Source: Cardiobacteriaceae bacterium
Lineage (GTDB): Bacteria > Pseudomonadota > Gammaproteobacteria > Cardiobacteriales > Cardiobacteriaceae
DNA length: 64,000 nucleotides
Assembly (NCBI GenBank): GCA_030525785.1
Contig: JAUNEA010000001.1
Location: 1-64,000 of the forward strand
Direction: 5' to 3'
Each line of letters starts with the position of its first letter. Position 1 is the first letter of the stretch. Shown here piece after piece: positions 45,224 through 64,000 of this stretch. The position numbers and the translations under genes were made by a program. Under the pieces are notes generated by a model. The model had not been told where the DNA came from. It worked only from the letters and a program-made list of their open reading frames with translations, and did not search any database.

Positions 45224-46192
45224 TTAACCACGGCGACGTTTTAAAGTATCAATCAAAACAGCCACAATAATAATCATACCTTTGACGATTAATTGCCAGT
45301 TAGGGTCAACACCTAATAGATTTAAGCCTTTATTGGTAGTGCCAATAATCAATGCACCAATGACACACATTGGCACAGAACCAATACCGCCATTTAAAGA
45401 AGTCCCACCAATAACCGCTGCAGCAATAGCATCTAATTCCCATGAAACACCATATGTTGGGTTACCTGCATAGGTTCTTGACGCAAGCATAGCGCCTGCT
45501 AATCCTGCTAATGCGCCTGCAAAAGTGTAAACCATAATTAAAGTTTTGCGTACATTAATACCTGAAATACGAGCAGCATTTCTATTACCGCCAATGGCGT
45601 AAATATGGCGACCAAATTGAGTGCGACTTAACAAAATATGTGAAAGAATAACAATAGCCACATAAATAAAGACTAAACCAGGAATGCCATTAAAAAGTTT
45701 TAAATCAGCGATCCAAGTAAATCCATCGCCACTGGCATCAATAGGGCGACCACCAGAGGACAATTGTGCTGCTCCACGAGCAATAGTCATCATGCCTAAG
45801 GTTGCAATGAAAGGAGGGATTTTGCCAATTGCTGTGAAAGCGCCGTTAATCGCGCCACAGAAGCCACCAATACCAATAGCAGCCATAAAAGCGAGTAATG
45901 CCAAAAATGCGCTATCTGAGCCTGTAACAATAATCGCTGCCATGACAGAAGCTAATGCAACAATAGATCCTGATGATAAATCGATGCCTGTCGTAATAAT
46001 AGCCATAGTTACGCCAATAGAGATAATGCCGAACATAGATACTTGTTCTAAAATACTTAAAAGCGTTTCAACAGAATAAAATCCCTGAATTTTAATCGAA
46101 AATCCTGTATACAAAACGACAAGAATAATCAACATGCCGTAAGTATTGAATAGATGTTTGAGATCTAATTTGATTTCTAATTTGTCTGTCAT
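45224..46192 (-). CDS. Sugar (probably myo-inositol) ABC transporter permease
   Basis: 322-aa inner-membrane permease of the RbsC/BPD-2 family, with about nine hydrophobic spans and the coupling segment GGNRNAARISGINVRKT near 200. AGAGG precedes the ATG. It is the last gene of a leftward set (binding protein, ATPase, permease) divergent from the iol genes, which implies inositol as substrate. No exact palindrome copy lies in the gene. Confidence 0.9.
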   Translation of the reverse strand: MTDKLEIKLDLKHLFNTYGMLIILVVLYTGFSIKIQGFYSVETLLSILEQVSMFGIISIGVTMAIITTGIDLSSGSIVALASVMAAIIVTGSDSAFLALLAFMAAIGIGGFCGAINGAFTAIGKIPPFIATLGMMTIARGAAQLSSGGRPIDASGDGFTWIADLKLFNGIPGLVFIYVAIVILSHILLSRTQFGRHIYAIGGNRNAARISGINVRKTLIMVYTFAGALAGLAGAMLASRTYAGNPTYGVSWELDAIAAAVIGGTSLNGGIGSVPMCVIGALIIGTTNKGLNLLGVDPNWQLIVKGMIIIVAVLIDTLKRRRG

Positions 46193-46196
46193 ATGA

Positions 46197-47705
46197 TTAA
46201 TCCTCTAATTTTAATCCTGATGCTAAGTGCATCACTTTTGCTTGCGTTGCTTCTTCTCGAGATAATTCACCTGTGAATTGACCTTCTGCCATAACCATAA
46301 TACGGTCACTCATTGCTAATAATTCCAACATATCTGATGAAATCATAATAATCGACTTACCTATTTTGGCCAGCTCTACCATCAAGCGATAAATTTCCGC
46401 TTTGGCTCCTACATCAATCCCTTTGGTGGGCTCGTCTAAAATAAGGACATCAGGGTTTAAGGTTAATTGGCGACCAATCAAAACTTTTTGTTGATTGCCA
46501 CCTGATAAATTGCCAGTTAAAACAGAAACGCTGGGTGCTTTAATTCGCATTTCTGTCCTTTGCTTTTCGGCGGTTTCTTTTGCCAAACCATTGGAAATAA
46601 GAAAATTTCTTATATATGGGCTAAGGTCAGGCATGATGACATTATCGGTAATATCCATATTTAAGAATAAGCCCGTTAGCTTACGATCTTCAGTAACCCA
46701 GCCGATTTTGTGTTTTTGGGCATCATTAGGATTGCGTACTTCAATTTTTTTGCCATGCATAATAATATCGCCACTATCACACGGACGATAACCATACAAA
46801 CTTTCCGCAATAAAGCTTCTGCCAGCGCCAACCAATCCAGCAATGCCTAAAATTTCTCCTTTTCTGACATGGAAATTGATATTCTTAAAGCAACCCTTAA
46901 GATTTAAGTTTCTGACTTCTAAAACTTTCTCTTCACCAATCTCAACTGCTTCTTTAGCATACATGTCACTCATTGAACGACCAACCATTTCTTCAATCAG
47001 TTGTTCTTTACTAATATTATTTGCTTCATGTGTGGCAACTAATTGACCATCGCGCAAAATAGAAATACGATCAGAAACACGGAAAACTTCATCGAGTTTA
47101 TGAGAAATGAAAATAACAGCAATACCACGTTCTTTAAGCTTATCTACGATATTGTATAAATATTCCACTTCGCTTTCGGTTAATGAGGTTGATGGCTCAT
47201 CCATTAAAATAACTTTGGCATCGTTAGAAACGGCTGTAGCGATGGCAACCAACTGAGCATGAGCTACAGAAACATCGCTCATTTTTTTGGTAACATCCAT
47301 CGTAATGCCCAAATCTTTTAACGTTTGCGCACAAACTTCGTTCATTTTCTTATTGGCTAAAAAACCCAAAGAGCCAAAGGTGATTTCTCGCCCTAAAAAG
47401 AAATTCTCCGCAATCGTTAAATTGGTCGCTGGGCTAATTTCTTGTGGCACCATAATCAAGCCAGACCGAATAGCTTCAATGGGTCTGCTAGGGTTAAATG
47501 GTTGACCATCAAAGCGCATTTTTCCACCACTGTCAAAAGAATAAATCCCATATAAGACTTTCATTAAAGTGGATTTGCCTGCGCCATTTTCGCCCATTAA
47601 AGCATGGACTTCCCCTTTTTTAATTTTTAAACTCACGCCATTAAGCGCTTTGACACCAGGGAAACTTTTGCTGATGTTTTCTAATTCCAGAATATATTCA
47701 CTCAT
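46197..47705 (-). CDS. Sugar (probably myo-inositol) ABC transporter ATPase
   Basis: 502-aa RbsA/MglA-type protein with two fused nucleotide-binding domains. First: Walker A GENGAGKST near 37 and Walker B VILMDEPS near 165. Second: signature NLSGGNQQKV near 400 and Walker B LILDEPTKGID near 425; its Walker A position reads GLVGAGRS, the degenerate form usual for the second half of this family. ATG 47705 is used (TTG 47708 also in frame). The gene holds one partial palindrome only, near its start. Confidence 0.93.
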   Translation of the reverse strand: MSEYILELENISKSFPGVKALNGVSLKIKKGEVHALMGENGAGKSTLMKVLYGIYSFDSGGKMRFDGQPFNPSRPIEAIRSGLIMVPQEISPATNLTIAENFFLGREITFGSLGFLANKKMNEVCAQTLKDLGITMDVTKKMSDVSVAHAQLVAIATAVSNDAKVILMDEPSTSLTESEVEYLYNIVDKLKERGIAVIFISHKLDEVFRVSDRISILRDGQLVATHEANNISKEQLIEEMVGRSMSDMYAKEAVEIGEEKVLEVRNLNLKGCFKNINFHVRKGEILGIAGLVGAGRSFIAESLYGYRPCDSGDIIMHGKKIEVRNPNDAQKHKIGWVTEDRKLTGLFLNMDITDNVIMPDLSPYIRNFLISNGLAKETAEKQRTEMRIKAPSVSVLTGNLSGGNQQKVLIGRQLTLNPDVLILDEPTKGIDVGAKAEIYRLMVELAKIGKSIIMISSDMLELLAMSDRIMVMAEGQFTGELSREEATQAKVMHLASGLKLED

Positions 47706-47793
47706 CAATCTGCCTTTTTGTTTATCCCTTTTGATTTATGGTTATCCGAAATAAAGCGCTTTGACGGCATTAAACTATCAAAGCGCTTTGATT

Positions 47794-48699
47794 TTATTTG
47801 CTTTCAGGGGTAATTAATTGGAAGGGAACATTGATAATGTGTTCGGCTTTTTCGCCTTTTGCCCATTTGTAAGCCGCTTCAATGGCACCCAAACCTTGAC
47901 CTTTGGCATCTTGTAGAACGGTGGCATCTAAGCCTTTACCCAAATATTCCAAAGCATCGGGTGTGCCGTCTAAGCCGACAATCACGAAATCTTCGTCTTT
48001 CAAGCCTGCTTTTTGGGTTGCTAATAAAGCGCCAATTGCCATTTCATCGTTGTTGGCAACAATGACATTCAATTTGTAGTCTTTACTTTGTAACCAATCT
48101 TCGGTGATTTCTAAGCCTTTGGCACGGTCCCATTTGGCTTCTTGTTCAACAATCACTTTGATATTATTGGTTTTTTCAAAAACTTGTTTATTGCCAGCGG
48201 TGCGGTTGATTTGTCCGTCTAAACCCAAAGGCCCCATCAAAATACCCACTCGACCGTCTTTACCAGCCAATAATTTTTCAATGATTTCACCTTGCAAAAT
48301 ACCGCCTTGAATCTCTTCAGAACCTACAAAAGTATTCACATTGGGCAAATCATCATCGTTGGGACGGCGATTGACGATAATCAACGGAATGCCAGCTTTT
48401 TGCAATTTTTTCGCAATGGGACGCACCACTTGACGGTCAGTAGGGTGAATAATCACAGCGCTAACCTTTTGAGAAATAAAGTTTTCAATATCCGCCAACA
48501 TGCGATTAGGGTCATCGTTGGCATCGGTTAAAACCACTTTGACATCATCGTGGGAAGCATCAAATGCCTTGATTTCGTCCATCACATAGGTGAGCCATTT
48601 ATCGGCAAACTTGGACATAGAAGCGCCAATAACGATTTCATCGGCAGCTTGTGCGAAGCCAGCGCAGAACATGGCGGATAAAAGTGCTAATTTTTTCAT
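47794..48699 (-). CDS. Periplasmic sugar-binding protein, inositol-type
   Basis: 301-aa RbsB-family solute-binding protein. Signal peptide residues 1-18 (FAQA then ADE). The two-lobed fold is shown by VIGASMSKFADKW near 22, IIHPTDRQVV near 83, VANNDEMAIGA near 214 and VGLDGTPDAL near 241. Being divergent from iolC, it likely binds myo-inositol, like Caulobacter IbpA, though ribose or xylose cannot be excluded by eye. GAGGT precedes the ATG. Two palindrome copies 27 bp apart in the gap to the ATPase gene can form a stem-loop that may set transcript ratios. Confidence 0.88.
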   Translation of the reverse strand: MKKLALLSAMFCAGFAQAADEIVIGASMSKFADKWLTYVMDEIKAFDASHDDVKVVLTDANDDPNRMLADIENFISQKVSAVIIHPTDRQVVRPIAKKLQKAGIPLIIVNRRPNDDDLPNVNTFVGSEEIQGGILQGEIIEKLLAGKDGRVGILMGPLGLDGQINRTAGNKQVFEKTNNIKVIVEQEAKWDRAKGLEITEDWLQSKDYKLNVIVANNDEMAIGALLATQKAGLKDEDFVIVGLDGTPDALEYLGKGLDATVLQDAKGQGLGAIEAAYKWAKGEKAEHIINVPFQLITPESK

Positions 48700-48767: not shown

Positions 48768-48800
48768 GGGTTTTTGAAAAAAATTTTCAGAAAAAATAAT

Positions 48801-48863: not shown

Positions 48864-50804
48864 ATGAGCATTCAATTTCCGAATAATCGTCAATATGATT
48901 TGGCATGTTTAGGGCGTTTAGCCGTTGATTTATATGGGGAAACTATTGGCGTAGGTTTAGAGAACACCCCCAGTTTTCAGAAATATTTGGGAGGCAGTTC
49001 AGCGAATATTGCCTTTGGTACCGCACGTTTGGGCTTGAAAAGCGCCATGATTTCACGGGTGGGCAACGAGCAAATGGGGCGGTTTTTAATCCAAACCTTG
49101 CAAAATGAAGGTTGCGACACTTCCCAAATCCAAATTGACCCCGAGCGCTTGACTGCTTTGGTATTTTTGGCGCTGAAAGACCAAGAAACCTTCCCGCTTC
49201 TGTTCTATCGCCGTGATTGCGCTGATATGAACATTGATGAAGCCCACATCAGCGAAGAGTTTATTAAAAATTGCAAAGCGCTTTTGATTACAGGTACTCA
49301 TTTATCCACTGAAAAAGTATTAAACGCCAGCCGTAAAGCGCTTTCTTACGCTCGAAAACACGGCACCAAAACGGTTTTGGACATTGATTATCGCCCTGTC
49401 CTCTGGGGCTTGACCAGCACAGGCGATGGCGAAACCCGTTACATTGCCAGCGACCGTGTCAGCCAACATTTACAAGCCCAATTGCCTTTGTTTGATTTGG
49501 TGATTGGTACAGAAGAAGAATTTTTAATCGCAGGTGGGGTAGAAAATGATTTGATTGCCTCACTGAAAAAAGCACGGGAATGCACCGAAGCCGTCTTTAT
49601 TTTGAAACGTGGGGCATTGGGCTGTCAGGTTTTAACGGGTGCGATTCCCGATGATTTAAGCGCTTTGCCGATTTACGCAGGCGAACGAATTGAGGTTTTA
49701 AACGTGTTGGGCGCTGGCGATGCTTTTGCCTCTGGCTTTTTGTATGGCTTGATTACAGGCAAAAATTACGAAGAAAGCGCTCGGATTGCGAATGTTTGCG
49801 GAGCCATTGTGGTGTCCCGTCATGGCTGTGCGCCTGCGATGCCAACTGCCGATGAATTGGCCTATTGGTTGAACAAAGGGGGCAGTCGTCCTGATTTAGA
49901 TGAGCAATTGCAACATTTGCACCGTGTCAGTTTGAAACGCAAATCGTGGGAAGAACTTTGTGTTTTAGCCTTTGACCATCGGGCGCAATTTGAAGACTTG
50001 GTACTCAAACACGGCTTTGACTTGAAAAAAATCCCCGAACTCAAAGCGCTTATTTTTGATGCCTATTGTGAATTGGAAAAAGAAAATCCTGAACTGGCAG
50101 GCAAATGCGGCATTTTGGCGGATAACACCTATGCGAAACAGGTTTTATCCGATGCCACCGAACGCAATCCACAATGGTGGATTGGTCGTCCTGTGGAGCA
50201 ACCGTCTAGCCGTCCGTTGAATTTTGACCGTACTTTATCCATTGCCAGCCAATTGTCCGCCATTCCGAAAGAACAGACCATTAAATGCTTGGTCTTTTAT
50301 CACCCTGAAGATGCGCTGGAATTGCGCTTGAACCAAGAAAAGCGCTTATTGGAACTTTGGGAAGCAGTGCGTCATTCAGGTCATGAATTGTTGTTGGAAG
50401 TGATTGCGCCTTTGGAAATGCCAGCCAGCGCCAAAGACAAAGACCCCGATAGTATTGTGTTACGTTCGGTGGCTCGTTTCTATAATTTGGGCATCAAACC
50501 CGACTGGTGGAAGCTCGCAGGCATGAGAGCAGAATCGTGGGAAGCGCTTTCTGGCTTGATTGCCCAACATGACCCTTATTGTCGTGGGGCGGTGGTTTTG
50601 GGCTTGAATCAGCCTGAAGCCGAATTGATTGCCAAGTTTAAAGAAGCGAAGCACCCTGTGGTGAAAGGTTTCATGATTGGTCGGACGGTTTGGGCAGAGC
50701 CATTAAGCGCTTTGTTGCAAGGCAAAATCAATGCCGACCAAGCCAAGTCACAAATGAAAGACTGCATGAAACGGCTGATTGATGGCTGGTTGCACAGAAA
50801 GTAA
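48864..50804 (+). CDS. iolC: 5-dehydro-2-deoxygluconokinase fused to DUF2090 aldolase-like domain
   Basis: 646-aa two-domain enzyme. Residues 1-330 are a PfkB kinase (GGSSANIAFGTARLG near 41, GAGDAFASGF near 283) that phosphorylates 5-dehydro-2-deoxygluconate. Residues 340-646 are DUF2090, a class I aldolase-like barrel. As no iolJ is in the window, the second domain probably cleaves the phosphorylated product, as proposed for the same fusion in other Proteobacteria. The frame runs back to 48651, but ATG 48864 has ACAGGAG upstream and a good promoter before it. Confidence 0.93.
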   Translation: MSIQFPNNRQYDLACLGRLAVDLYGETIGVGLENTPSFQKYLGGSSANIAFGTARLGLKSAMISRVGNEQMGRFLIQTLQNEGCDTSQIQIDPERLTALVFLALKDQETFPLLFYRRDCADMNIDEAHISEEFIKNCKALLITGTHLSTEKVLNASRKALSYARKHGTKTVLDIDYRPVLWGLTSTGDGETRYIASDRVSQHLQAQLPLFDLVIGTEEEFLIAGGVENDLIASLKKARECTEAVFILKRGALGCQVLTGAIPDDLSALPIYAGERIEVLNVLGAGDAFASGFLYGLITGKNYEESARIANVCGAIVVSRHGCAPAMPTADELAYWLNKGGSRPDLDEQLQHLHRVSLKRKSWEELCVLAFDHRAQFEDLVLKHGFDLKKIPELKALIFDAYCELEKENPELAGKCGILADNTYAKQVLSDATERNPQWWIGRPVEQPSSRPLNFDRTLSIASQLSAIPKEQTIKCLVFYHPEDALELRLNQEKRLLELWEAVRHSGHELLLEVIAPLEMPASAKDKDPDSIVLRSVARFYNLGIKPDWWKLAGMRAESWEALSGLIAQHDPYCRGAVVLGLNQPEAELIAKFKEAKHPVVKGFMIGRTVWAEPLSALLQGKINADQAKSQMKDCMKRLIDGWLHRK

Positions 50805-50853: not shown

Positions 50854-52734
50854 ATGAGTAAAAAAACAATCAGATTAACGATGGCACAGGCTTTAACCCG
50901 TTATTTAGCCTCTTTAAAAATTGAAGACGAAAACGGACAGCTTCACGATTATGTGGGCGGAGTTTGGGCGATTTTCGGACACGGCAATGTGTGCGGTTTG
51001 GGGGAAGCGCTTTCGGAAGTACGTTTGCCTGATGCCAATAGAGCGTTCCGTCCTAATGGTTTGCCTGTCTATCGGGGGCATAATGAACAGGGCATGGCTC
51101 ATGCGGCCATTGCTTACGGAAAAGCCAACTTCCGTCAAAAAATCATGGTAGCGACTTCTTCCATTGGGCCAGGTGCAACCAATATGGTGACTGCTGCCGC
51201 TTTGGCCTATGTGAATCGTTTGCCTTTGTTGTTGTTACCGGGTGATATTTTTGTCACCCGTGACCCTGACCCAGTATTGCAACAAAGTGAAGATTTTTCT
51301 GCAGGCGATACCAGCGTGAATGATTGCTTCCGTCCTGTATCACGCTATTTTGACCGCATTACCCACCCTGCTCAATTGTTAAGCGCTTTGCCCAGAGCGG
51401 TGGCGGTTTTGACTGACCCTGTGTTATGTGGGCCTGTGACTTTAGCGTTACCGCAAGATGTTCAGGCGTGGGCATATGATTACCCTGAAGAATTTTTCAA
51501 TCCCAAACCGATTAAATTCCGCCGTTTGCAGGCTGATAATCGTGAAATTGAAGAAGCGCTTTCTCGTTTAAAAACTGCGAAAAAACCGTTGATTATTGCA
51601 GGTGGTGGCGTTTTATACAGTCAAGCCAGCGCTGAATTACAAGCTTTTGCGGAAAAATACGGCATTCCTGTAACCGAAACCCAAGCAGGTCACAGCGCTT
51701 TGGCGTGGCATCATCCGTTAAATGCGGGGGCGATTGGGGTTTCTGGGGTGACTTCAGCCAATAAACTGGCAGAAGAAGCCGATTTAATTATTGCCGTTGG
51801 CACCCGCTTACAAGATTTTACCACTGGCTCGAATGCTTTGTTTTCGGCTGATGTGTTGGCGTTAAACGTTTCGCCTTTGGACATTACTCGCCGTCATGCC
51901 CAAGCCGTTTTGGGCGATGCCAAACTTTCGCTCAAAGCGCTTTTACAAGCGGAACAGTGTGGCGATAAAACTTGGACAGAACACGCCAAAGCGCTTTGTT
52001 CAGCATGGCAAAAACGGGTCACTGAACTCACCACTGCTGTTCCTACAGGTTTGCCCTATGATGCGGAAGTGATTGGTGCCGTGCGTGACAGCATTGAACA
52101 TTCTGATAAAAACGATGTGGTGGTTTGTGCAGCTGGAACCCTTCCAGCCGAATTGCATAAACTCTGGCGTGCCGATGGTGCAGGCAATTACCACATGGAT
52201 TATGGCTATTCTTGCATGGGCTATGAAATCGCTGGCGCACTGGGGGTCAAACTGGCTCGTCCCCATCAAGAAGTGATTGTGATGGTCGGTGATGGCTCTT
52301 ATTTGATGATGAACAGCGAACTGGCCATTGCCCAAATGTTGGGTTTAAAAATCATTGTGGTGGTTTTGGATAATCACGGCTATGGTTGCATCAATCGTTT
52401 GCAACGCTCCAGCGGTAGTCCTAATTTCAATAACTTATTGCAACATTGCGTCCCTGAAAACGGCAACGATGTGATGATTGATTTTGCTCTGCACGCACGC
52501 AGTTTAGGCGCTCATTCGGAAAAAGTCGCCGATGTCAAAGCGCTTTCCGAAGCCATGAAATCTGCACGCCAACGGGCAGGGGTTTCGGTGATTGTCATTG
52601 AAACCACCCCAGAACGCATTACTCAAGATGGTGGCACATGGTGGGAAGTCGGTATTCCTGAAGTCTCCCATTATCCTGCGGTCAATCAAGCCCACGCAGG
52701 TTTAAAAGAGGCGAAAAAGAAACAACAGAAATAA
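50854..52734 (+). CDS. iolD: 3D-(3,5/4)-trihydroxycyclohexane-1,2-dione hydrolase
   Basis: Thiamine-diphosphate enzyme that opens the inositol ring. 626 aa in three domains: N-terminal PYR (GHNEQGMAHAAIAYGK near 69), central NAD-like domain (about 225-350) and C-terminal PP domain with the ThDP/Mg motif MVGDGSYLMMNSELAIAQ near 475. AAGGAAC precedes the ATG. It is the second gene after iolC, about 50 bp downstream. Confidence 0.96.
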   Translation: MSKKTIRLTMAQALTRYLASLKIEDENGQLHDYVGGVWAIFGHGNVCGLGEALSEVRLPDANRAFRPNGLPVYRGHNEQGMAHAAIAYGKANFRQKIMVATSSIGPGATNMVTAAALAYVNRLPLLLLPGDIFVTRDPDPVLQQSEDFSAGDTSVNDCFRPVSRYFDRITHPAQLLSALPRAVAVLTDPVLCGPVTLALPQDVQAWAYDYPEEFFNPKPIKFRRLQADNREIEEALSRLKTAKKPLIIAGGGVLYSQASAELQAFAEKYGIPVTETQAGHSALAWHHPLNAGAIGVSGVTSANKLAEEADLIIAVGTRLQDFTTGSNALFSADVLALNVSPLDITRRHAQAVLGDAKLSLKALLQAEQCGDKTWTEHAKALCSAWQKRVTELTTAVPTGLPYDAEVIGAVRDSIEHSDKNDVVVCAAGTLPAELHKLWRADGAGNYHMDYGYSCMGYEIAGALGVKLARPHQEVIVMVGDGSYLMMNSELAIAQMLGLKIIVVVLDNHGYGCINRLQRSSGSPNFNNLLQHCVPENGNDVMIDFALHARSLGAHSEKVADVKALSEAMKSARQRAGVSVIVIETTPERITQDGGTWWEVGIPEVSHYPAVNQAHAGLKEAKKKQQK

Positions 52735-52765: not shown

Positions 52766-54082
52766 ATGCACGGAATTTATGCATCAACATGGGAAAGTAT
52801 TAAAACCCACACTTTGCCTGAATGGTTTGAGGATTACAAATTGGGGATTTTTATCCATTGGGGCATTTATTCCGTGCCTGCTTTTGCGCCGAAAACTTGG
52901 GAATTGGGAGAGGTGCCAGTTGATGAAACGTGGTTTTGCAATAATCCCTATGCAGAATGGTATTTCAACTCCATTAATGTGAAAAAAGGCGCAACCTATG
53001 AACATCATGTAAAAACTTATGGTGAAAATTTTCAATACCAAGATTTTATCCCTCAATGGAAAGCTGAGCATTTTAATCCTGAAGAATGGGCAACTTTATT
53101 TAAGGAAGCTGGTGCTAAATATGTAGTGCTGACGACCAAACACCATGATGGCTTTTGCTTGTTCCCCAGTCGATATACTGATTATCATAGCCTTAATTTA
53201 GGGCCTAAGCGTAATATTATGGGAGAATTAACCAAAGCTGTACGTCATCAAGGCTTAAAAATGGGTGCGTATTATTCGGGTGCAATTGATTGGACATTTT
53301 CACCTGCGCCCATTTTTACCGAAAGCCAAAATATGAGTAACACCAGCCCTACCTATGCTTATGCTGATTATGCTTTCAATCAAGTGCGTGAATTGATTGA
53401 TGATTATCAGCCATCTGTCTTATGGAACGATATAGGTTGGGTGAAACAAGGGGAACATATGTTGCCTACTTTATTTGCCCATTATTACAACCGTGTAGCT
53501 GATGGAGTCACCAATAATCGGTGGAATAATCTTTGGCATGATTTTGTTTGCAAAGAATACAAGCATGGTGAGGTTAATCGCCAGCAAAAATGGGAAATGT
53601 GTCGGGGATTGGGGTTATCGTTTGGTTATAACCAAAATGAAACTGATGAGGATTATATTCAACCCAAAGCGCTTATTGAATTATTGGTGGAAGTAGTCGC
53701 CAATAATGGTAACTTGTTACTCAATGTTGGGCCTAAAGCTGATGGCACTATCCCGCTTGAGCAGCAAAAGCGCTTAAAAGCTTTAGGAGAATGGTTAAAA
53801 ATCAATGGTGAGGCGATTTATGGCAGTCGCCCTGAGCGAGAAAGCTATAAAGAACAAGATTTAATGTTCCATTTTACACAAAAAGAAAAGCAGAAATATG
53901 CTTTTGTGGCTGGATTGAATCAGGGAAAAAACGATTTTTATTTGCCATTTAAAGGAAAAATTAAAGCACTTTGCCAAGATTTACAGTTTTCTGCTAAAGA
54001 GCATGAACAAGGAACTTTTATAAGCGTTCTTAATTATCAAACGGATTTTCATGTTTTAACATTTACTATAGAGGAGCAATAA
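52766..54082 (+). CDS. GH29 alpha-L-fucosidase, cytoplasmic
   Basis: 438-aa glycoside hydrolase family 29 enzyme close to Thermotoga fucosidase. GIFIHWGIYSVPAF near 28, TTKHHDGFCLFPS near 123, the nucleophile D222 in VLWNDIGW, and GNLLLNVGPKADGTIP near 314. No signal peptide, so it acts on imported, perhaps phosphorylated, fucosides. TAGGAG precedes the ATG. It sits inside the inositol operon between iolD and iolE, 2 bp before a PTS IIC gene. It holds only partial palindrome copies, and its codon use looks more AT-rich than neighbours. Confidence 0.93.
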   Translation: MHGIYASTWESIKTHTLPEWFEDYKLGIFIHWGIYSVPAFAPKTWELGEVPVDETWFCNNPYAEWYFNSINVKKGATYEHHVKTYGENFQYQDFIPQWKAEHFNPEEWATLFKEAGAKYVVLTTKHHDGFCLFPSRYTDYHSLNLGPKRNIMGELTKAVRHQGLKMGAYYSGAIDWTFSPAPIFTESQNMSNTSPTYAYADYAFNQVRELIDDYQPSVLWNDIGWVKQGEHMLPTLFAHYYNRVADGVTNNRWNNLWHDFVCKEYKHGEVNRQQKWEMCRGLGLSFGYNQNETDEDYIQPKALIELLVEVVANNGNLLLNVGPKADGTIPLEQQKRLKALGEWLKINGEAIYGSRPERESYKEQDLMFHFTQKEKQKYAFVAGLNQGKNDFYLPFKGKIKALCQDLQFSAKEHEQGTFISVLNYQTDFHVLTFTIEEQ

Positions 54083-54083
54083 C

Positions 54084-55442
54084 ATGAGTGGATTAAAGCA
54101 AAAACTCATGGATTACATGAATAACCATATCGCGCCATTGGCAAAACGTATGGAAAATCAGCCACATATTGTGGCAGTGCGAGATGGTTTTATTGTCGTT
54201 TTACCTTTTTTGGTAGTCGGCAGTTTTATTATGATTTTCTTAATACCACCTTTTGCAGAGAACACTCAAAATTGGTTTGGTAAAGGTTGGTGGGCATTTG
54301 CGCGTTGGGCAAGTGATTACGGCTGGCGATTCTTCCAAATGTCCTTCAATCTAATTTCACTTTTTACCGCAGGAAGTATTGCCTACAATCTTGCCAAAGC
54401 TTATAAACGTGAGCCTTTACCAGCTGCTTTTCTATCCATTATGGCATTTATGTTAATTTCCATGCCTGTGGTAGAAGGGAAAATGGATATTAAATTCTTT
54501 GGTGGAGTAGGTTTATTTACTGCTATTTTTACCGCTATTTATACAGTAGAATTAACAAGATTCCTAGAGAAGAAAAATATTCGCATTCATTTACCGAAAG
54601 AAGTTCCTCATGCAGTAGCGGAATCTTTAAATATTGTGATTCCAATTTTAGCGATTTGTTTAACTTTATATCCTTTGGCATTGATAATTGAACATTTTAC
54701 AGGAAGCATTATTCCTCAGATTATTTTGGATTTTATGGCTCCTTTAATTAAAGCCAGCGATTCCATTTGGGCGATTATTTTGTTTGTTTTTGCAACCCAT
54801 TTGCTATGGTTCTTTGGAATCAATGGTTCTTTGGTATTAATGCAGTTATGGACACCATTTTTATTACAAAATATGAGTGCTAATTTAGAAGCACTTCAAG
54901 CTGGACAACCTTTGCCTTATATCATTACTAATTCCTTCTGGGATTTTTATGTAGTACATGGTGCATCAGGTGGTGTCATTGCACTGGCTATTTTAATGGT
55001 ACGCAGTAAATCACAGCATCTAAAATCAATTGGTAAAATTGGTTTGGTTCCTTCGATTTTCTCTATTGGCGAGCCAATTGTGTATGGTGTGCCGATGGTA
55101 GTGAATCCTACTTTCTTCATTCCCTTGATTTTTGCTCCAATTGTTAATGCTATTATTGCTTATGTGATTTTGGATATGGATTTAATCCATCGTATTTATT
55201 TAATGGCTCCATGGACAACGCCTGCTCCTTTTGGTGCTTATTTGGTATCAGGAGGAGATATTTGGGCGCCGATTTTAAGTGCAGGGTTAATCTTGCTTGA
55301 TGTCTTGATTTATTATCCATTCTTTAAATCTTATGAGCGGCAATGTTTGGTTCGTGAGCAACAGCAAGCCAATGAACAGCAAAGCGCTTTGAGTCAAAAT
55401 GATTTAGCATTGGAAAAACAGGCGGAACAATACGCGAAATAA
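54084..55442 (+). CDS. PTS Lac-family IIC permease (cellobiose/beta-glucoside type)
   Basis: 452-aa membrane permease of the lactose/cellobiose (Lac) PTS family, about ten hydrophobic spans, with FLIPPF near 51, WFFGINGSLVL near 247 and PSIFSIGEPIVYGVPMV near 320. No IIA or IIB is adjacent, so it would need partners encoded elsewhere. It starts 2 bp after the fucosidase, implying import of a fucosylated disaccharide, an inference from pairing. Only the C-terminal tail holds a palindrome copy (QSAL); the 1.3 kb before it has none. Confidence 0.92.
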   Translation: MSGLKQKLMDYMNNHIAPLAKRMENQPHIVAVRDGFIVVLPFLVVGSFIMIFLIPPFAENTQNWFGKGWWAFARWASDYGWRFFQMSFNLISLFTAGSIAYNLAKAYKREPLPAAFLSIMAFMLISMPVVEGKMDIKFFGGVGLFTAIFTAIYTVELTRFLEKKNIRIHLPKEVPHAVAESLNIVIPILAICLTLYPLALIIEHFTGSIIPQIILDFMAPLIKASDSIWAIILFVFATHLLWFFGINGSLVLMQLWTPFLLQNMSANLEALQAGQPLPYIITNSFWDFYVVHGASGGVIALAILMVRSKSQHLKSIGKIGLVPSIFSIGEPIVYGVPMVVNPTFFIPLIFAPIVNAIIAYVILDMDLIHRIYLMAPWTTPAPFGAYLVSGGDIWAPILSAGLILLDVLIYYPFFKSYERQCLVREQQQANEQQSALSQNDLALEKQAEQYAK

Positions 55443-55489: not shown

Positions 55490-56419
55490 ATGGCATTAAA
55501 CGTACGCATTGGCATTAACCCCATTGGTTGGTCAAACGATGATTTACCTTCATTGGGTGGTGAAACGCCATTAGAAACTGCTTTAAAAGAAGGGGCGGAA
55601 ATTGGCTATGTGGGTTTTGAATTGGGCAATAAATTCCCCAAAACGGGCGAAACCCTAAAAGCGAAATTAGATGAATTTGGGGTGGTTTGTGTATCGGGTT
55701 GGTACAGCGCACAATTGGGCAATAAAGATTTTACCGTAGCCCAAGAAATTGAAGCCTGCCGTCAGCATATGGAAAAACTGGCCTATAACGATTGTAAAGT
55801 GGTGGTCTATGGTGAATGTGGCGACACCATTCAAGGACAAATCAATACGCCATTGTCTCAACGTCCTCGTTTCGCCAATGATGATGAATGGAAGCGCTAT
55901 GCCGATAAATTGAATCAATTTGGCGAACATTTAATCAAAACCTATGGCTTACAAATTGCCTATCATCACCATATGGGCGCTTATGTTGAACACCCCAATG
56001 ATGTGGCAAAACTGATGAGTTTAACCGACCCCAAAGCAGTGGGTTTATTGTTTGACACAGGACATTGCTGGTTTGGTCAAGCGACCAATAATCCTGAACA
56101 AATCATTGATGTTACCGAAATGTTGAAAGCCCATATTCATCGGGTGAATCATGTGCATTGTAAAGATGTGCGTCCTGCGGTGATTCGTGATATTCGCAAC
56201 CGCAATCAATCGTTCTTAAATGCTGTTTTGGCAGGGGCTTATACCGTTCCTTCTGATGGCGCGATTGATTTTGATGCCGTTTTGAAGATTTTAAGCGAAC
56301 ACAATTATTCAGGTTGGTTGGTGGTTGAAGCCGAACAAGACCCCAAACTTGCGCCATCTTATGAATACGGTAAAAAAGGTTACGATGCCTTAAAAGCTTT
56401 GGTGCAAAAATATCAATAA
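55490..56419 (+). CDS. iolE: 2-keto-myo-inositol dehydratase
   Basis: 309-aa TIM-barrel enzyme (AP-endonuclease-2 fold) converting scyllo-inosose to the dione substrate of IolD. GINPIGWSNDDLP near 8, AYHHHMGAYVEH near 160 and DTGHCWFG near 188 carry the metal ligands. AAAGGAC precedes the ATG. It resumes the inositol pathway after the fucosidase/IIC insertion. Two palindrome copies 27 bp apart follow in the gap to iolB. Confidence 0.95.
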   Translation: MALNVRIGINPIGWSNDDLPSLGGETPLETALKEGAEIGYVGFELGNKFPKTGETLKAKLDEFGVVCVSGWYSAQLGNKDFTVAQEIEACRQHMEKLAYNDCKVVVYGECGDTIQGQINTPLSQRPRFANDDEWKRYADKLNQFGEHLIKTYGLQIAYHHHMGAYVEHPNDVAKLMSLTDPKAVGLLFDTGHCWFGQATNNPEQIIDVTEMLKAHIHRVNHVHCKDVRPAVIRDIRNRNQSFLNAVLAGAYTVPSDGAIDFDAVLKILSEHNYSGWLVVEAEQDPKLAPSYEYGKKGYDALKALVQKYQ

Positions 56420-56487: not shown

Positions 56488-57294
56488 ATGGCGAAATTAT
56501 TATTAAAACCCAATCCTCAAGGCGCTTTGATTCACGATGTGAGTAAAGACAGTGCAGGTTGGGGCTATGTGGGTTTTCAGGTTTTGAAATTAAAAGCAGG
56601 TGAAACTTTTGCCTTTGATGCCTTAAACGATACGGAAAGATGCTTTACCGTTTTAACAGGCAAATGCGATGTTTCTTTGGATAAAGCACTTTTTGCAGAA
56701 AACATTGGCGAACGGGAAAGTGTGTTTGAAGACAAATCACCCTATGCGGTTTATGTTCCACCGAAAGTATCGGTAGAAATCAAAGCACTTTCAGATAATC
56801 TGGAGATTGGCATTTCGACTGCTCCTGCCGAAGGAAAATATCCGCCTCGTTTGATTAAACCCGAAGAAATGAAACGTTCGGTGCGAGGCAAAGGTTCTAA
56901 TACTCGCTATATTTGCGATATTTTGCCCGAAACCGATAAAAGTGCGGAAAGTCTATTGGTGGTGGAAGTGATTACGCCTAATGGCAACACGTCCAGCTAT
57001 CCGCCCCACAAACACGACCAAGCCACCGCCACCGAAACCTATTTGGAAGAAACCTATTATCACCGCATTAATCCGCCACAAGGCTTTGCTTTCCAACGGG
57101 TTTATACCGATGACCGCAGTTTAGACGAGGCAATGGCAGTGGAAGACGGCGATGTGGTTTTGGTGCCGAAAGGCTATCACCCTTGTGCCACCATTCACGG
57201 CTACGATTTGTATTATTTGAATACGATGGCAGGCGGTGAGCGCCGTTGGCAGTTTTACAATGCCCCCGAACATGAGTGGTTATTAAAGGTTTAA
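56488..57294 (+). CDS. iolB: 5-deoxy-glucuronate isomerase
   Basis: 268-aa bicupin converting 5-deoxy-glucuronate to 5-dehydro-2-deoxygluconate, the IolC substrate. Metal-binding region SYPPHKHDQATATETYLEETYYH near 170 and HPCATIHGYDLYYLN near 230. The gene contains two AAAGCACTTT variants (56684, 56784), which look like decayed copies of the palindrome. RpiR regulator follows after 3 bp. Confidence 0.95.
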   Translation: MAKLLLKPNPQGALIHDVSKDSAGWGYVGFQVLKLKAGETFAFDALNDTERCFTVLTGKCDVSLDKALFAENIGERESVFEDKSPYAVYVPPKVSVEIKALSDNLEIGISTAPAEGKYPPRLIKPEEMKRSVRGKGSNTRYICDILPETDKSAESLLVVEVITPNGNTSSYPPHKHDQATATETYLEETYYHRINPPQGFAFQRVYTDDRSLDEAMAVEDGDVVLVPKGYHPCATIHGYDLYYLNTMAGGERRWQFYNAPEHEWLLKV

Positions 57295-57297
57295 ATC

Positions 57298-58122
57298 ATG
57301 CCCTATTCGCACCCCGAAGCGCTTTTTGAAGCCATAGAAAATCGTTATGAATCCTTGAGTAAGCGTTTGCAGACGGTGGCTCGGGATTTACCTGCCTATC
57401 GTGAGCGCTTGGCATTGATGAATGTGGAAGATTTAGCAAGCGCTTTGGGGGTTTCAACGGCAAGCGTGGTGCGTTTTGCCCAAACCTTTGGTTTCAAAGG
57501 ATACAGTGATTTAAAAGCGCTTTTCCAACGGGAATGGACGGCACAAATCAACGATTACGGTAGTCGGATTGAGCAGAATTTAGGAGGCAAACATCAGGCG
57601 GAAATGGAAATCGTGCAAACGGTTTTTGAAAACAACATCAAAGGTTTGCAGGATTTGATGAGTCCGCAATTGGTGGAGGCTTTGCACGCCAGCGTGGATT
57701 TGATGATGAACGCACGGAGTTTATGGATTATGGCAAGCGGACGCAGTTTTGGTTCTGCTGCCTATTTAACCTATTTGGTGCAACACAGTCCCAAGCCTGT
57801 TAATTGGTTGAATGGTCTGTGTTTTAATCTGGAAGGCAAGCTCCACAGCATTGGTAAAAACGATGTGTTGATTGTGATTTCCTATGCGCCCTATGCGGAA
57901 AGCAGTGTGCAAGCGGTGTATATGGCTCGTGAGCGAGGGGCAAAAATCATTGCCATCACGGATAGTCCGCTGGGGGAAATCGGTAAGGCTTGTCAGCAGA
58001 TGATTCCTGTACGTGATGCCAGTAGCTATGGTTTTCGTTCTTTGGTGAATTCGGTCAGTGTGATTCAAGCGCTTTTTTTGCTTTACGCTTCACGGGCTGA
58101 ATTTGAAGCCAAAGAGTATTAA
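57298..58122 (+). CDS. RpiR-family regulator, probable IolR
   Basis: 274-aa repressor with an N-terminal helix-turn-helix (about 30-80, MNVEDLASALGVSTASVVRFAQTFGFKGYSDLKALF) and a C-terminal SIS domain (about 120-260) that senses a phosphosugar. Set inside the iol operon, it most likely controls it with an inositol-pathway phosphate as ligand, as for RpiR-type IolR proteins in other Proteobacteria. Its site is not identified; the divergent region 48700-48863 is the place to look. Confidence 0.87.
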   Translation: MPYSHPEALFEAIENRYESLSKRLQTVARDLPAYRERLALMNVEDLASALGVSTASVVRFAQTFGFKGYSDLKALFQREWTAQINDYGSRIEQNLGGKHQAEMEIVQTVFENNIKGLQDLMSPQLVEALHASVDLMMNARSLWIMASGRSFGSAAYLTYLVQHSPKPVNWLNGLCFNLEGKLHSIGKNDVLIVISYAPYAESSVQAVYMARERGAKIIAITDSPLGEIGKACQQMIPVRDASSYGFRSLVNSVSVIQALFLLYASRAEFEAKEY

Positions 58123-58152: not shown

Positions 58153-59139
58153 ATGAAAGTAGCCTTATTTGGAGCAGGACGGATTGGAAAAATCCACGCC
58201 AGCAATTTAACCGCCATTGATGGTGTGGAATTGGTCTATATTCACGACCCATACGCCCCCAATGCCGAAGCGCTTTCGGCGCAAACAGGTGCGAAAATTG
58301 CAGGTGTGGAAGAGATTTTTGCCGACAAAAGCATTGATGTGGTGGTGATTGCTTCTTCAACCGATACCCACAGCGATTTATTACTCAAAGCAGCGGCTGC
58401 CAAAAAACACGTTTTCTGTGAAAAACCCATCGATTTATCGCTGGAAAAAGCGCTTTTATGCGAAAAAGCTGTCAAAGAAAGTGGCATTACGTGTATGTTG
58501 GGTTTCCAACGCCGTTTTGACCCCACGTTCTATGCCGCTAAACAACGCATTGAACAAGGCGAAATCGGCACGCCAGAAGTGTTGATTATCACCAGCCGTG
58601 ACCCTGGTGCGCCACCTGTGGAATATTTGAAGGTTTCGGGCGGAATTTTCCGTGATATGTTGATTCACGATTTTGATATTTGCCGTTGGATTTTGGACGA
58701 TGAAGTGGTGAGCGTATTTGCGCAGGCTTCTTGCTTGGTAGATAGCAAAATCCAAAGCGAAGCAGGCGATTATGACACCACTGCTGTTACCTTGAAAACC
58801 AAAAGCGGACGTTTGTGCCAAATCAACACCACCCGCCGTGCGCCCTATGGCTATGACCAACGTTTTGAAGTCATGGGTGCCAAAGGTCTGTTGCAATGCC
58901 ACAACCACAAGCCCACCGAAGTGCAATATTGGGGAACAGCGAATGTCAGCCAAGATTTGCCTGAACATTTCTTCTTGGAACGTTACCGTGCCGCCTATCG
59001 TTTAGAAATGGAACATTTCTTCGATTGCGTGAAAAACGGCAAAACCCCACGCACCAGTATTTCCGATGGCGTTCAGGCGCAAAAACTTGCTGATGCCGCC
59101 ACTCAATCGGCAAAAACTGGACAAGTGGTTCTTTTGTAA
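58153..59139 (+). CDS. iolG: Inositol 2-dehydrogenase
   Basis: NAD-dependent oxidation of myo-inositol to scyllo-inosose, first pathway step. 328-aa Gfo/Idh/MocA protein: Rossmann motif FGAGRIGKIHASN near 5, catalytic lysine in FCEKPIDLS near 94, and DMLIHDFDICRW near 169. AAAGGA precedes the ATG. It is the first of two such dehydrogenases in the operon. Confidence 0.93.
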   Translation: MKVALFGAGRIGKIHASNLTAIDGVELVYIHDPYAPNAEALSAQTGAKIAGVEEIFADKSIDVVVIASSTDTHSDLLLKAAAAKKHVFCEKPIDLSLEKALLCEKAVKESGITCMLGFQRRFDPTFYAAKQRIEQGEIGTPEVLIITSRDPGAPPVEYLKVSGGIFRDMLIHDFDICRWILDDEVVSVFAQASCLVDSKIQSEAGDYDTTAVTLKTKSGRLCQINTTRRAPYGYDQRFEVMGAKGLLQCHNHKPTEVQYWGTANVSQDLPEHFFLERYRAAYRLEMEHFFDCVKNGKTPRTSISDGVQAQKLADAATQSAKTGQVVLL

Positions 59140-59351: not shown

Positions 59352-60371
59352 ATGAAAATTGGGATTGTTGGATTAGGAAGATTAGGCAAACGCCATGCCG
59401 AAAATTTATTAAAGCGCATTGATGGCGCAGAATTAGTGGCAGGGGCTTCGCCTGTTTTAGCTGAACGTCAATATGCCGAAAGTTTGGGTTTAAAAAGCTA
59501 TGAAACCTTAGAAGCGCTTTTATTACACCCCGAATTGGAAGCAGTGATTTTGGTTACGCCCACTGCCTTACATGCCGAGCAAAGCATTGCCGTATTGGAA
59601 GCAGGCAAACATTTATTTGTGGAAAAACCTTTGGCGCTTAATGTGGAAGATTGCGAAAAAGTTGAAGCCGTCTATGGTGAAACGAAAAAGCGCTTTCCCA
59701 AACAAATGGCGATGGTGGGCTTTGTCCGCCGTTTTGACCCCAGCTATGCTGCCGCCAAAAAAGCGCTTTTACAGGGGGAAATTGGCGAGGCATTTTTTAT
59801 TCGTTCGCAAACCTGCGACCAATACGACCCCAATGGTTTTTTCGTTCAGTTTTCGGCGACATCAGGCGGATTAATCATGGATTGCAATATTCATGATATT
59901 GATTTGGTGCGTTGGTTTTTAAGCGATAAAAATGGTAATGCGCCTAAAGCGCTTCGTTTTCACGCCACAGGCAGTGCCAATATTTATCCCGATTTAAAAG
60001 CCTTTCAAGATGTGGATAACGCCATCGCCACCATTGAATTTGAAGGCGGAAAATTCGCTCATCTCTATGCCTCTCGTTCCTTTGCACATGGACACGAAAC
60101 CTCCACCGAAATCATCGCCACCGAAGGCAAACTCTTAATTGGGGCAGGGGCGCATTTAAATCGAGTGGTGAAAAGCGATAAAAACGGGGTCAGCCATGAA
60201 GCCTTACCTGATTTTTCCGCACGGTTCAGCGAAGCATTTATCTATGAATTACAGGCTTTTGTTGATGCCTGCGCTGGCAAAATTCCTGCGCCTTTAAGCC
60301 TCAACGATGCCACCGAAGCCACCCGCATTGGGGTAGAACTCACCAAAGCGCTTCGAGCAAATTTAAGTTAA
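59352..60371 (+). CDS. Second Gfo/Idh/MocA dehydrogenase (inositol/scyllo-inositol type)
   Basis: 339-aa paralogue of iol[14 protein letters not shown] near 6, catalytic lysine in VEKPLALN near 97 and [13 protein letters not shown] near 175. ATG 59352 has AAGGA upstream; the frame extends back to 59289 in a palindrome-rich spacer. In other bacteria extra family members oxidise scyllo- or D-chiro-inositol (IolX/IolW type), so it may broaden the substrate range. The 210-bp gap before it holds three palindrome copies. Confidence 0.88.
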
Positions 60372-60399: not shown

Positions 60400-61893
60400 A
60401 TGACGATTATTCAACACTATATTCAAGGACAAGCCACTTCCGCAGGCTCTACCCGTCAGCAGGCGGTTTATAACCCAGCCACAGGCGAAGTCACAGGACA
60501 AGTTTTATTGGCTGAAGTCGCTGATGTGGTATTGGCAGTCGAAAAAGCCAAAAGCGCTTTTCCTGCTTGGGCAAGAGTCGCACCTGTACGCAGAGCAAGA
60601 ATTTTGAATAATTTCCTGCAATTGCTCAATAAACACCACGATGAACTCGCCGATATGATTTCACGGGAACACGGCAAAGTTTTCACCGATGCCAAAGGCG
60701 AAGTGATGCGTGGCATTGAAATCGTGGAATTTGCCATTGGTATTCCCCAACTTTTAAAAGGCGGATTCAGTGAAAATGTTGGCGGTGGCATTGACAACTG
60801 GGTGATGCGTCAGCCGTTGGGCGTGGTCGCTGGTATTACGCCATTTAACTTCCCAGCGATGGTGCCGATGTGGATGTTCCCTGTAGCGTTGGCTTGTGGC
60901 AATACTTTTATCCTCAAACCCAGCCCCAATGACCCCAGCGTTTCGCTTCGTTTGGCTGAACTTTTAAAAGAAGCTGGCTTGCCTGATGGCGTATTTAATG
61001 TGGTGCAGGGCGATAAGGTGGCGGTTGATGCTTTAATCGAACACCCTGATGTCAAAGCGCTTTCTTTCGTGGGTTCAACGCCAATCGCCAATTATATTTA
61101 CGAACGTTGCGCCCATTTTGGCAAACGTGTTCAGGCTTTGGGCGGAGCCAAAAACCATATGGTGATTATGCCCGATGCCGATTTGGAAAAAGCCTGCGAT
61201 GCTTTGATGGGCGCCGCTTATGGCAGTGCTGGCGAACGTTGCATGGCAACAGCGGTGGCTGTATTTGTCGGTGGCGTAGGTGAGAAAATGTTGCCGATGT
61301 TGCGTGAGAAAATCAAAGCGCTTCGCATCAAAAATGGCAAACATTTAGATGCCGATATGGGGGCAATTATCAATAAACAAGCCCTTGAAAGAATTACCAA
61401 TTATATTCAAATCGGTGTCGATGAAGGCGCTGTTTTATTGGAAGACGGCAGAACCTTCAAAAATGCCGAAGACCCCAATGGTTTCTGGCTCGGTGCCACT
61501 TTGTTTGACCAAGTCACCCCTGAAATGCGGATTTACAAAGAAGAAATCTTTGGCCCCGTTTTGGCTTGCGTTCATGTGGATAATTTGGAACAAGCTATTG
61601 ATTTAATTAATAAGCATGAGTTTGGTAATGGCACTTCCTGCTTCACTCGTGATGGCTACACGGCGCATCGTTTTGCTCACCATATTGAAGTCGGTATGGT
61701 TGGCATCAATGTGCCGATTCCTGTACCGATGGCGTGGCAAGGTTTTGGCGGTTGGAAACGTTCCTTATTCGGCGATATGCATGCTTATGGCGAAGAAGGT
61801 GTACGTTTCTATACTCGTCAAAAATCCGTCATGCAGCGCTGGAACGAATCTCATACTGGCGCAAGTTTCGTGATGCCGACTTCTAATGATTGA
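60400..61893 (+). CDS. iolA: Methylmalonate-semialdehyde dehydrogenase (CoA-acylating)
   Basis: 497-aa aldehyde dehydrogenase turning malonate semialdehyde to acetyl-CoA, the last inositol step (MmsA/IolA). N-terminal [14 protein letters not shown] near 147, [15 protein letters not shown] near 225, and the catalytic cysteine C281 in [19 protein letters not shown] precedes the ATG. It closes the operon before a terminator. Confidence 0.95.
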
Positions 61894-63518: not shown

Positions 63519-64000
63519 GATGATGCCTGTGTTTCGTGGTTTTGTGATAACGGGCTCGTGCCAACAATTCAGCGGCAGCGGTATAAGTTTCGGGTTAACG
63601 TGTGGCGAGCGCGAAAGGGGCAAATGCAGGCGATTGGACGGCGGCGGTGGTTTACAAACGCTGGGCTTGGGCGGTGCGTCAAACTTAGGCAACACGAGCG
63701 CAACAAAGCGACACGGTGAGACGATGCGCTCCGCCTTGCTACTCAAAGCGCTTTGGCAACGCTGAGCTTTACCGCGCGTTGTTTGTTCCAACAAGCATTT
63801 GGCGAACATTGCGGAGGCGGTTTCTTTGACACTGAGACTCAAGCTCGCCTCGCGCGGCTTAGGTAAAGCGTGGCGCGTGCAATGTTGGCTTAATTCAACG
63901 CATTGTAGCCTTAAGCCCAAAGCGCTTTGCAGGCTGGGATTGTGGCGCGTGGTCAGTGTTTGCGCGTTGTGCAACGGAGAGAGACTAGCAAAGCGCTTTG
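63519..64000. other. No confident gene; GC-rich stretch with palindrome copies
   Basis: Upstream of the tail-like gene to the window edge. Frames on both strands are open but basic, proline- and cysteine-rich, without a ribosome site or recognisable protein. GC content is visibly higher than elsewhere. Three palindrome copies (about 63746, 63920 and 63990) are present. It may be a regulatory or degenerate phage region. Confidence 0.6.

Follow-up and report, generated by a model that had tools for sequence, protein, structure and literature searches.

The window analysed here, a 64-kb stretch of DNA, carries an inositol catabolic (iol) operon in which genes for a GH29 alpha-L-fucosidase and a Lac/cellobiose-family phosphotransferase system (PTS) permease, EIIC, lie between iolD and iolE (Table 1). 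Both genes are read on the plus strand with 1 base between them. This gene order, described in an earlier note on this DNA, was confirmed by open reading frames and by Pfam and NCBIfam profiles, with the NCBIfam profiles identifying the flanking genes as bona fide iol genes. The short gaps on either side, about 31 bases from iolD to GH29 and 47 bases from IIC to iolE, indicate that the pair is probably co-read with the iol operon. Judged from sequence and context, the divergent sugar ABC transporter upstream is a candidate inositol importer. The second, iolG-like dehydrogenase of the operon scored 262 bits against an iolG cut-off of 355 and may use another cyclitol or sugar.

Table 1. Genes and features of the inositol locus in the 64-kb window.
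Feature	Position	Strand	Description
Sugar ABC transporter, divergent (permease, ATPase, binding protein)	45224-48699	-	open reading frames; candidate inositol importer
TGAAAAAAATTTTCA palindrome, candidate IolR operator	48775-48789	.	lies where the ABC and iol operons diverge
iolC-aldolase fusion, first gene of iol operon	48894-50804	+	NF047869
iolD, 5' neighbour of GH29	50854-52734	+	TIGR04377, 847 bits
GH29 alpha-L-fucosidase	52766-54082	+	438 aa; Alpha_L_fucos; D222 nucleophile, E264 acid/base
Lac/cellobiose-family PTS EIIC	54084-55442	+	452 aa; N247 replaces His250 of bcChbC; E330 (=E334) retained
iolE, 3' neighbour of IIC	55490-56419	+	TIGR04379
iolB	56488-57294	+	TIGR04378
RpiR-family regulator, candidate IolR	57298-58122	+	HTH_6 + SIS
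iolG	58153-59139	+	TIGR04380, above cut-off
Second Gfo/Idh/MocA dehydrogenase, iolG-like	59352-60371	+	below iolG cut-off
iolA-like CoA-acylating malonate/methylmalonate semialdehyde dehydrogenase (MMSDH)	60400-61893	+	TIGR01722

The fucosidase has a complete GH29 domain (Pfam Alpha_L_fucos, 1.6e-108, residues 5-349), and its best solved relative is the alpha-L-fucosidase of Thermotoga maritima (2zwy/1hl8; residues 5-388, 436 bits). Its catalytic residues align with D224 and E266 of the T. maritima enzyme and are invariant across five aligned sequences. By inspection, the N-terminus is not hydrophobic and holds no signal peptide, which bears out the cytoplasmic location proposed earlier. The permease is equally clear in its family membership (PTS_EIIC, 1.7e-50, in Pfam; lacE/TIGR00410 family, 315.5 bits against a cut-off of 236, in NCBIfam). 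An AlphaFold2 model of IIC built from five sequences reached a mean pLDDT of only 37 and was rejected.

The earlier note described the permease as lacking IIA and IIB partners, and this held beyond the immediate neighbourhood. Neither component adjoins the pair in the window. The genome from which the window derives (93.7% complete) contains no Lac-type IIA (PF02255) and no evident Lac-type IIB, all five of its PTS_IIB matches belonging to fructose-like or ascorbate-like systems. Two ascorbate-like PTS permease systems were seen in this genome (L021, 8296-9938; L022, 6923-9373), one of them an IIB+IIC pair with no adjacent IIA. Among 20 genomes that carry the GH29-IIC pair (the window genome and 19 Pasteurellaceae), 16 lack a Lac IIA and four have one elsewhere in the genome. 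Hydrogen bonds to substrate have been reported for E334 and H250 of Bacillus cereus ChbC (PMC8193941). The glutamate is retained in all aligned IICs, and the histidine position is occupied by Asn in 20 of 20 GH29-paired IICs versus His in 11 of 11 comparison IICs. The comparison set includes ChbC itself, and eight of its members have annotated IIB and IIA genes as neighbours. PTS permeases are able to move sugar without phosphorylating it, acting as facilitators (PMC10989795). The search for IIA and IIB partners proposed earlier gave no Lac-type candidate in the window genome, and such partners are probably unneeded rather than awaiting discovery.

The pair is AT-rich (GC 0.38 for GH29 and 0.37 for IIC; GC3 0.33 and 0.30) relative to the iol genes (GC 0.42-0.48). 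The AT-rich codons noted earlier are therefore real, but they are not peculiar to the pair, as the upstream ABC transporter genes have a GC of 0.38-0.43. Low GC is consistent with acquisition of the pair, though the ABC genes share it. The palindrome CAAAGCGCTTTG occurs 63 times in 64 kb where 0.01 copies are expected (e.g. 2024-2035 and 63989-64000), and AGCGCT/CAAAGCGCTTTG is a palindrome repeated very many times in this genome, comparable to cyanobacterial HIP1. AGCGCT also stands directly 3' of the iolD stop (52736) and of the IIC stop (55443). Three AGCGCT sites fall within the 2.7-kb insert, where about 8 are expected from the 193 in the window; this deficit is modest and common to the ABC genes, and low palindrome density was set aside as a special sign of the insert.

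No GH29 of this type was found in 56 other genomes near the window genome, and iolE was present in only two, distant, of 31 relatives, making the iol operon as a whole atypical of this group. A search of the window's family for the order iolD-fucosidase-IIC-iolE accordingly found no other member with GH29 or iolE, and the family-wide arrangement that would have spoken against an insertion was not encountered. That the pair was inserted is plausible because iolD and iolE adjoin in the Pasteurellaceae clusters read, while close relatives give no polarity. The closest counterparts in a genome scan came from Testudinibacter, Chelonobacter oris and Pasteurella testudinis (70% identity for GH29, 74-77% for IIC). 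In Pasteurellaceae, the family of Chelonobacter, GH29 was present in 19 of 140 genomes and was followed directly by IIC in all 19, bringing the pairing to 20 of 20 genomes with the window included. Main clades of the GH29 and IIC trees were concordant, indicating that the two genes move together. Clostridia and Thermotogaceae also contain GH29 relatives (48-56%), with no IIC match close to them; plasmid GH29 matches were all below 60% identity with no such pair noticed among the matches listed, and viral contigs searched with the IIC alignment yielded no match.

Placement of the pair is highly variable, with about 11 different genomic places overall. Three unrelated arrangements adjoin iol genes: that of the window, the order iolC-GH29-IIC-rpiR (4 Pasteurellaceae genomes), and a pair convergent with iol dehydrogenase genes (3 genomes). 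In three other Pasteurellaceae genomes the pair lies inside a fucose operon (fucI-fucK-GH29-IIC-fucU-fucA) and in 3 more near fuc genes; it stands alone in 5 and elsewhere in 1. One fuc-operon copy (L062, 9385-10708) has a frameshifted GH29 and an intact IIC.

Co-occurrence connects the pair to inositol catabolism wherever it is placed. Across the 140 Pasteurellaceae genomes, iolD was present in 19 of 19 with GH29 versus 39 of 121 without (Fisher 7e-9), and fucI, encoding L-fucose isomerase, in 17 of 19 versus 64 of 121 (p 0.002). The iolD association held when only genomes with fucI were considered, all 17 pair carriers among them having iolD (p 1e-5). GH29 changes 13 times on a 137-genome infB tree. 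When an independently evolving trait was simulated 19,494 times on it, the all-iolD-positive outcome never arose; the fucI level was matched in 0.5% of simulations (p 0.005). A more conservative independent-pairs test gave about 5 concordant and 0 discordant of 9 pairs, with a median p of 0.06 that reflects too few pairs and an under-powered test. Three carriers have no fucI: the window genome (none found at 93.7% completeness), G155 and G170. All three keep the pair at iol, and inositol, not fucose, thus looks like the usable half there.

A candidate operator provides a further connection. The motif TGAAA-N6-TTTCA is perfect in 15 of 15 Pasteurellaceae iol promoters examined. In the window, TGAAAAAAATTTTCA is the only TGAAA-N5-TTTCA in 64 kb, and its half-sites are the same as those of the 15 promoters. 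Where GH29 is unlinked to iol, palindromes with 9-10 of 10 matching positions (N5 or N6) occur upstream in 7 of 8 loci, whereas none of 37 other upstream regions at the same eight loci has such a match to TGAAA-N5/6-TTTCA. By hand calculation this enrichment is about 2e-7 (hypergeometric), a value weakened by the relatedness of the species and by AT content, and about 1e-5 on AT-matched controls. Spacing of the candidate operator varies (N5 or N6), and pair copies within the 3 fuc operons have no TGAAA-N5/6-TTTCA motif of their own. The position of the pair in the window's iol operon and the operator-like palindrome that precedes most copies away from iol both point to membership of the iol regulon. 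A CRP-like TGTGA-N6-TCACA is also visible upstream of most GH29 copies. Separately, a hairpin, ATGCCCGA...TCGGGCAT, is conserved about 100-200 bp upstream of GH29 at L050-L061 despite differing neighbour genes; its arms covary (GACCGA/TCGGTC, GACCGT/ACGGTC), and it is perhaps a terminator travelling with the GH29-IIC module.

The earlier idea of a fucoside import and cleavage unit tied to inositol is supported by the invariant pairing, complete iolD co-occurrence, three iol placements and operators; its choice of an ordinary fucosyl-disaccharide as substrate fared less well, a fucosyl-cyclitol (fucosyl-inositol) being more likely. Among the genomes checked the pair is found only with inositol catabolism, and this suggests that it imports and splits a so far unrecognised fucose-inositol conjugate. 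On balance we lean toward GH29 and IIC forming a mobile, inositol-regulon module for fucoside import and cleavage, most likely for fucosyl-inositol. IIC would carry the alpha-L-fucoside across the inner membrane without phosphorylation, and cytoplasmic GH29 would release L-fucose and an aglycone. The aglycone, most likely inositol, would enter the iol pathway; fucose would enter the fuc pathway where present and would probably be discarded where that pathway is absent, as in the window genome. A putative RpiR-type IolR is predicted to repress the pair. Fucosyl-inositol lacks any primary hydroxyl on which a PTS could act, so an uncoupled IIC would be expected for such a substrate. Lac IIA in four carriers, the solitary pair in 5 genomes, the motif-free copies in 3 fuc operons and the variable operator spacing count against this reading. 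A literature search for fucosyl-inositol and for fucosidases with inositol catabolism in operons found no relevant paper. We propose, tentatively and with somewhat less assurance, that the pair represents a previously unrecognised fucosyl-inositol route in which a non-phosphorylating former PTS permease and a cytoplasmic GH29 operate under inositol control.

Other explanations account for parts of these data. The pair might scavenge fucosides generically, taking up host-glycan fucosyl-disaccharides (e.g. Fuc-GlcNAc, Fuc-Gal) with fucose as the nutrient and inositol as a cue shared through IolR. Placement in fuc operons and enrichment of fucI agree with this proposal, as does the precedent of Lactobacillus casei, which uses PTS and GH29 enzymes (AlfB/AlfC, PTS AlfEFG) for fucosyl-disaccharides. 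We nonetheless regard it as rather unlikely: the window genome and two other carriers lack fucI yet keep the pair at iol, iolD accompanies the pair without exception, a tighter association than that of fucI, and the open reading frame lists show no galactosidase or hexosaminidase beside the pair. Alternatively, IIC could be a working PTS permease that borrows IIA and IIB from another system and imports a phosphorylated fucoside. Genes for EI and HPr are present in the window genome, Glu334 is retained and a Lac IIA is encoded at some other place in four carriers, but the 16 of 20 carriers without one and the uniform replacement of His250 by Asn make such coupling improbable. L-fucose, moreover, has no 6-OH, and to our knowledge GH29 is not a phospho-glycosidase family.

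We assign still less weight to the proposal that IIC exports or exchanges released L-fucose while the fucoside enters by the divergent ABC transporter. An ABC sugar importer does adjoin the iol operon, and fucose should leave a cell that, like that of the window genome, has no fucI. Against an exporter, in several genomes the pair stands by itself at a distance from every ABC importer observed in the loci, and it also occurs in genomes with fucose catabolism genes. That a horizontally acquired pair came to lie in the iol operon by chance, with no functional meaning, seems scarcely credible; low GC, sparse palindromes and the many genomic places suggest acquisition, but three separate iol-adjacent placements, the presence of iolD in every carrier and iol-type operators at pair copies remote from iol are difficult to reconcile with accident.

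The fucosyl-inositol reading gives a testable function to a conserved but unexplained gene pair and points to a particular metabolite of host or diet that has yet to be studied; if true, it implies an unrecognised fucosyl-inositol pool in animal hosts. IIC would also show that a PTS permease can lose its coupling to phosphorylation in nature, with the His-to-Asn change as the one residue diagnostic of it. Alpha-fucosidase is an identification trait in Mannheimia, with M. haemolytica and M. glucosida positive and M. ruminalis negative (PMC1949873). The GH29-IIC pair may explain this trait.

Relative to known systems, the fucosidase shares its catalytic Asp and Glu with the T. maritima enzyme and differs in operon context and proposed substrate. 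In the alf system of L. casei, intracellular GH29 is likewise paired with a PTS-type permease. That system, however, uses a complete mannose-class PTS, whereas the pair described here has a lone Lac-class IIC of another sequence family, no IIA or IIB, and a linkage to inositol. B. cereus ChbC (3qnq) and Lac/cellobiose PTS operons share the IIC family and the retained Glu334; here, in contrast, His250 is replaced by Asn, IIA and IIB are missing, and the partner enzyme is GH29 instead of a 6-phospho-beta-glucosidase. Fucose operons of the type fucI-fucK-fucU-fucA house the same pair in three Pasteurellaceae and, judged by fucI, are absent from the window genome. The surrounding operon itself resembles other bacterial iol operons in its iolC/D/E/B/G/A genes and RpiR regulator; we know of no standard iol operon that includes a fucosidase or a PTS permease.
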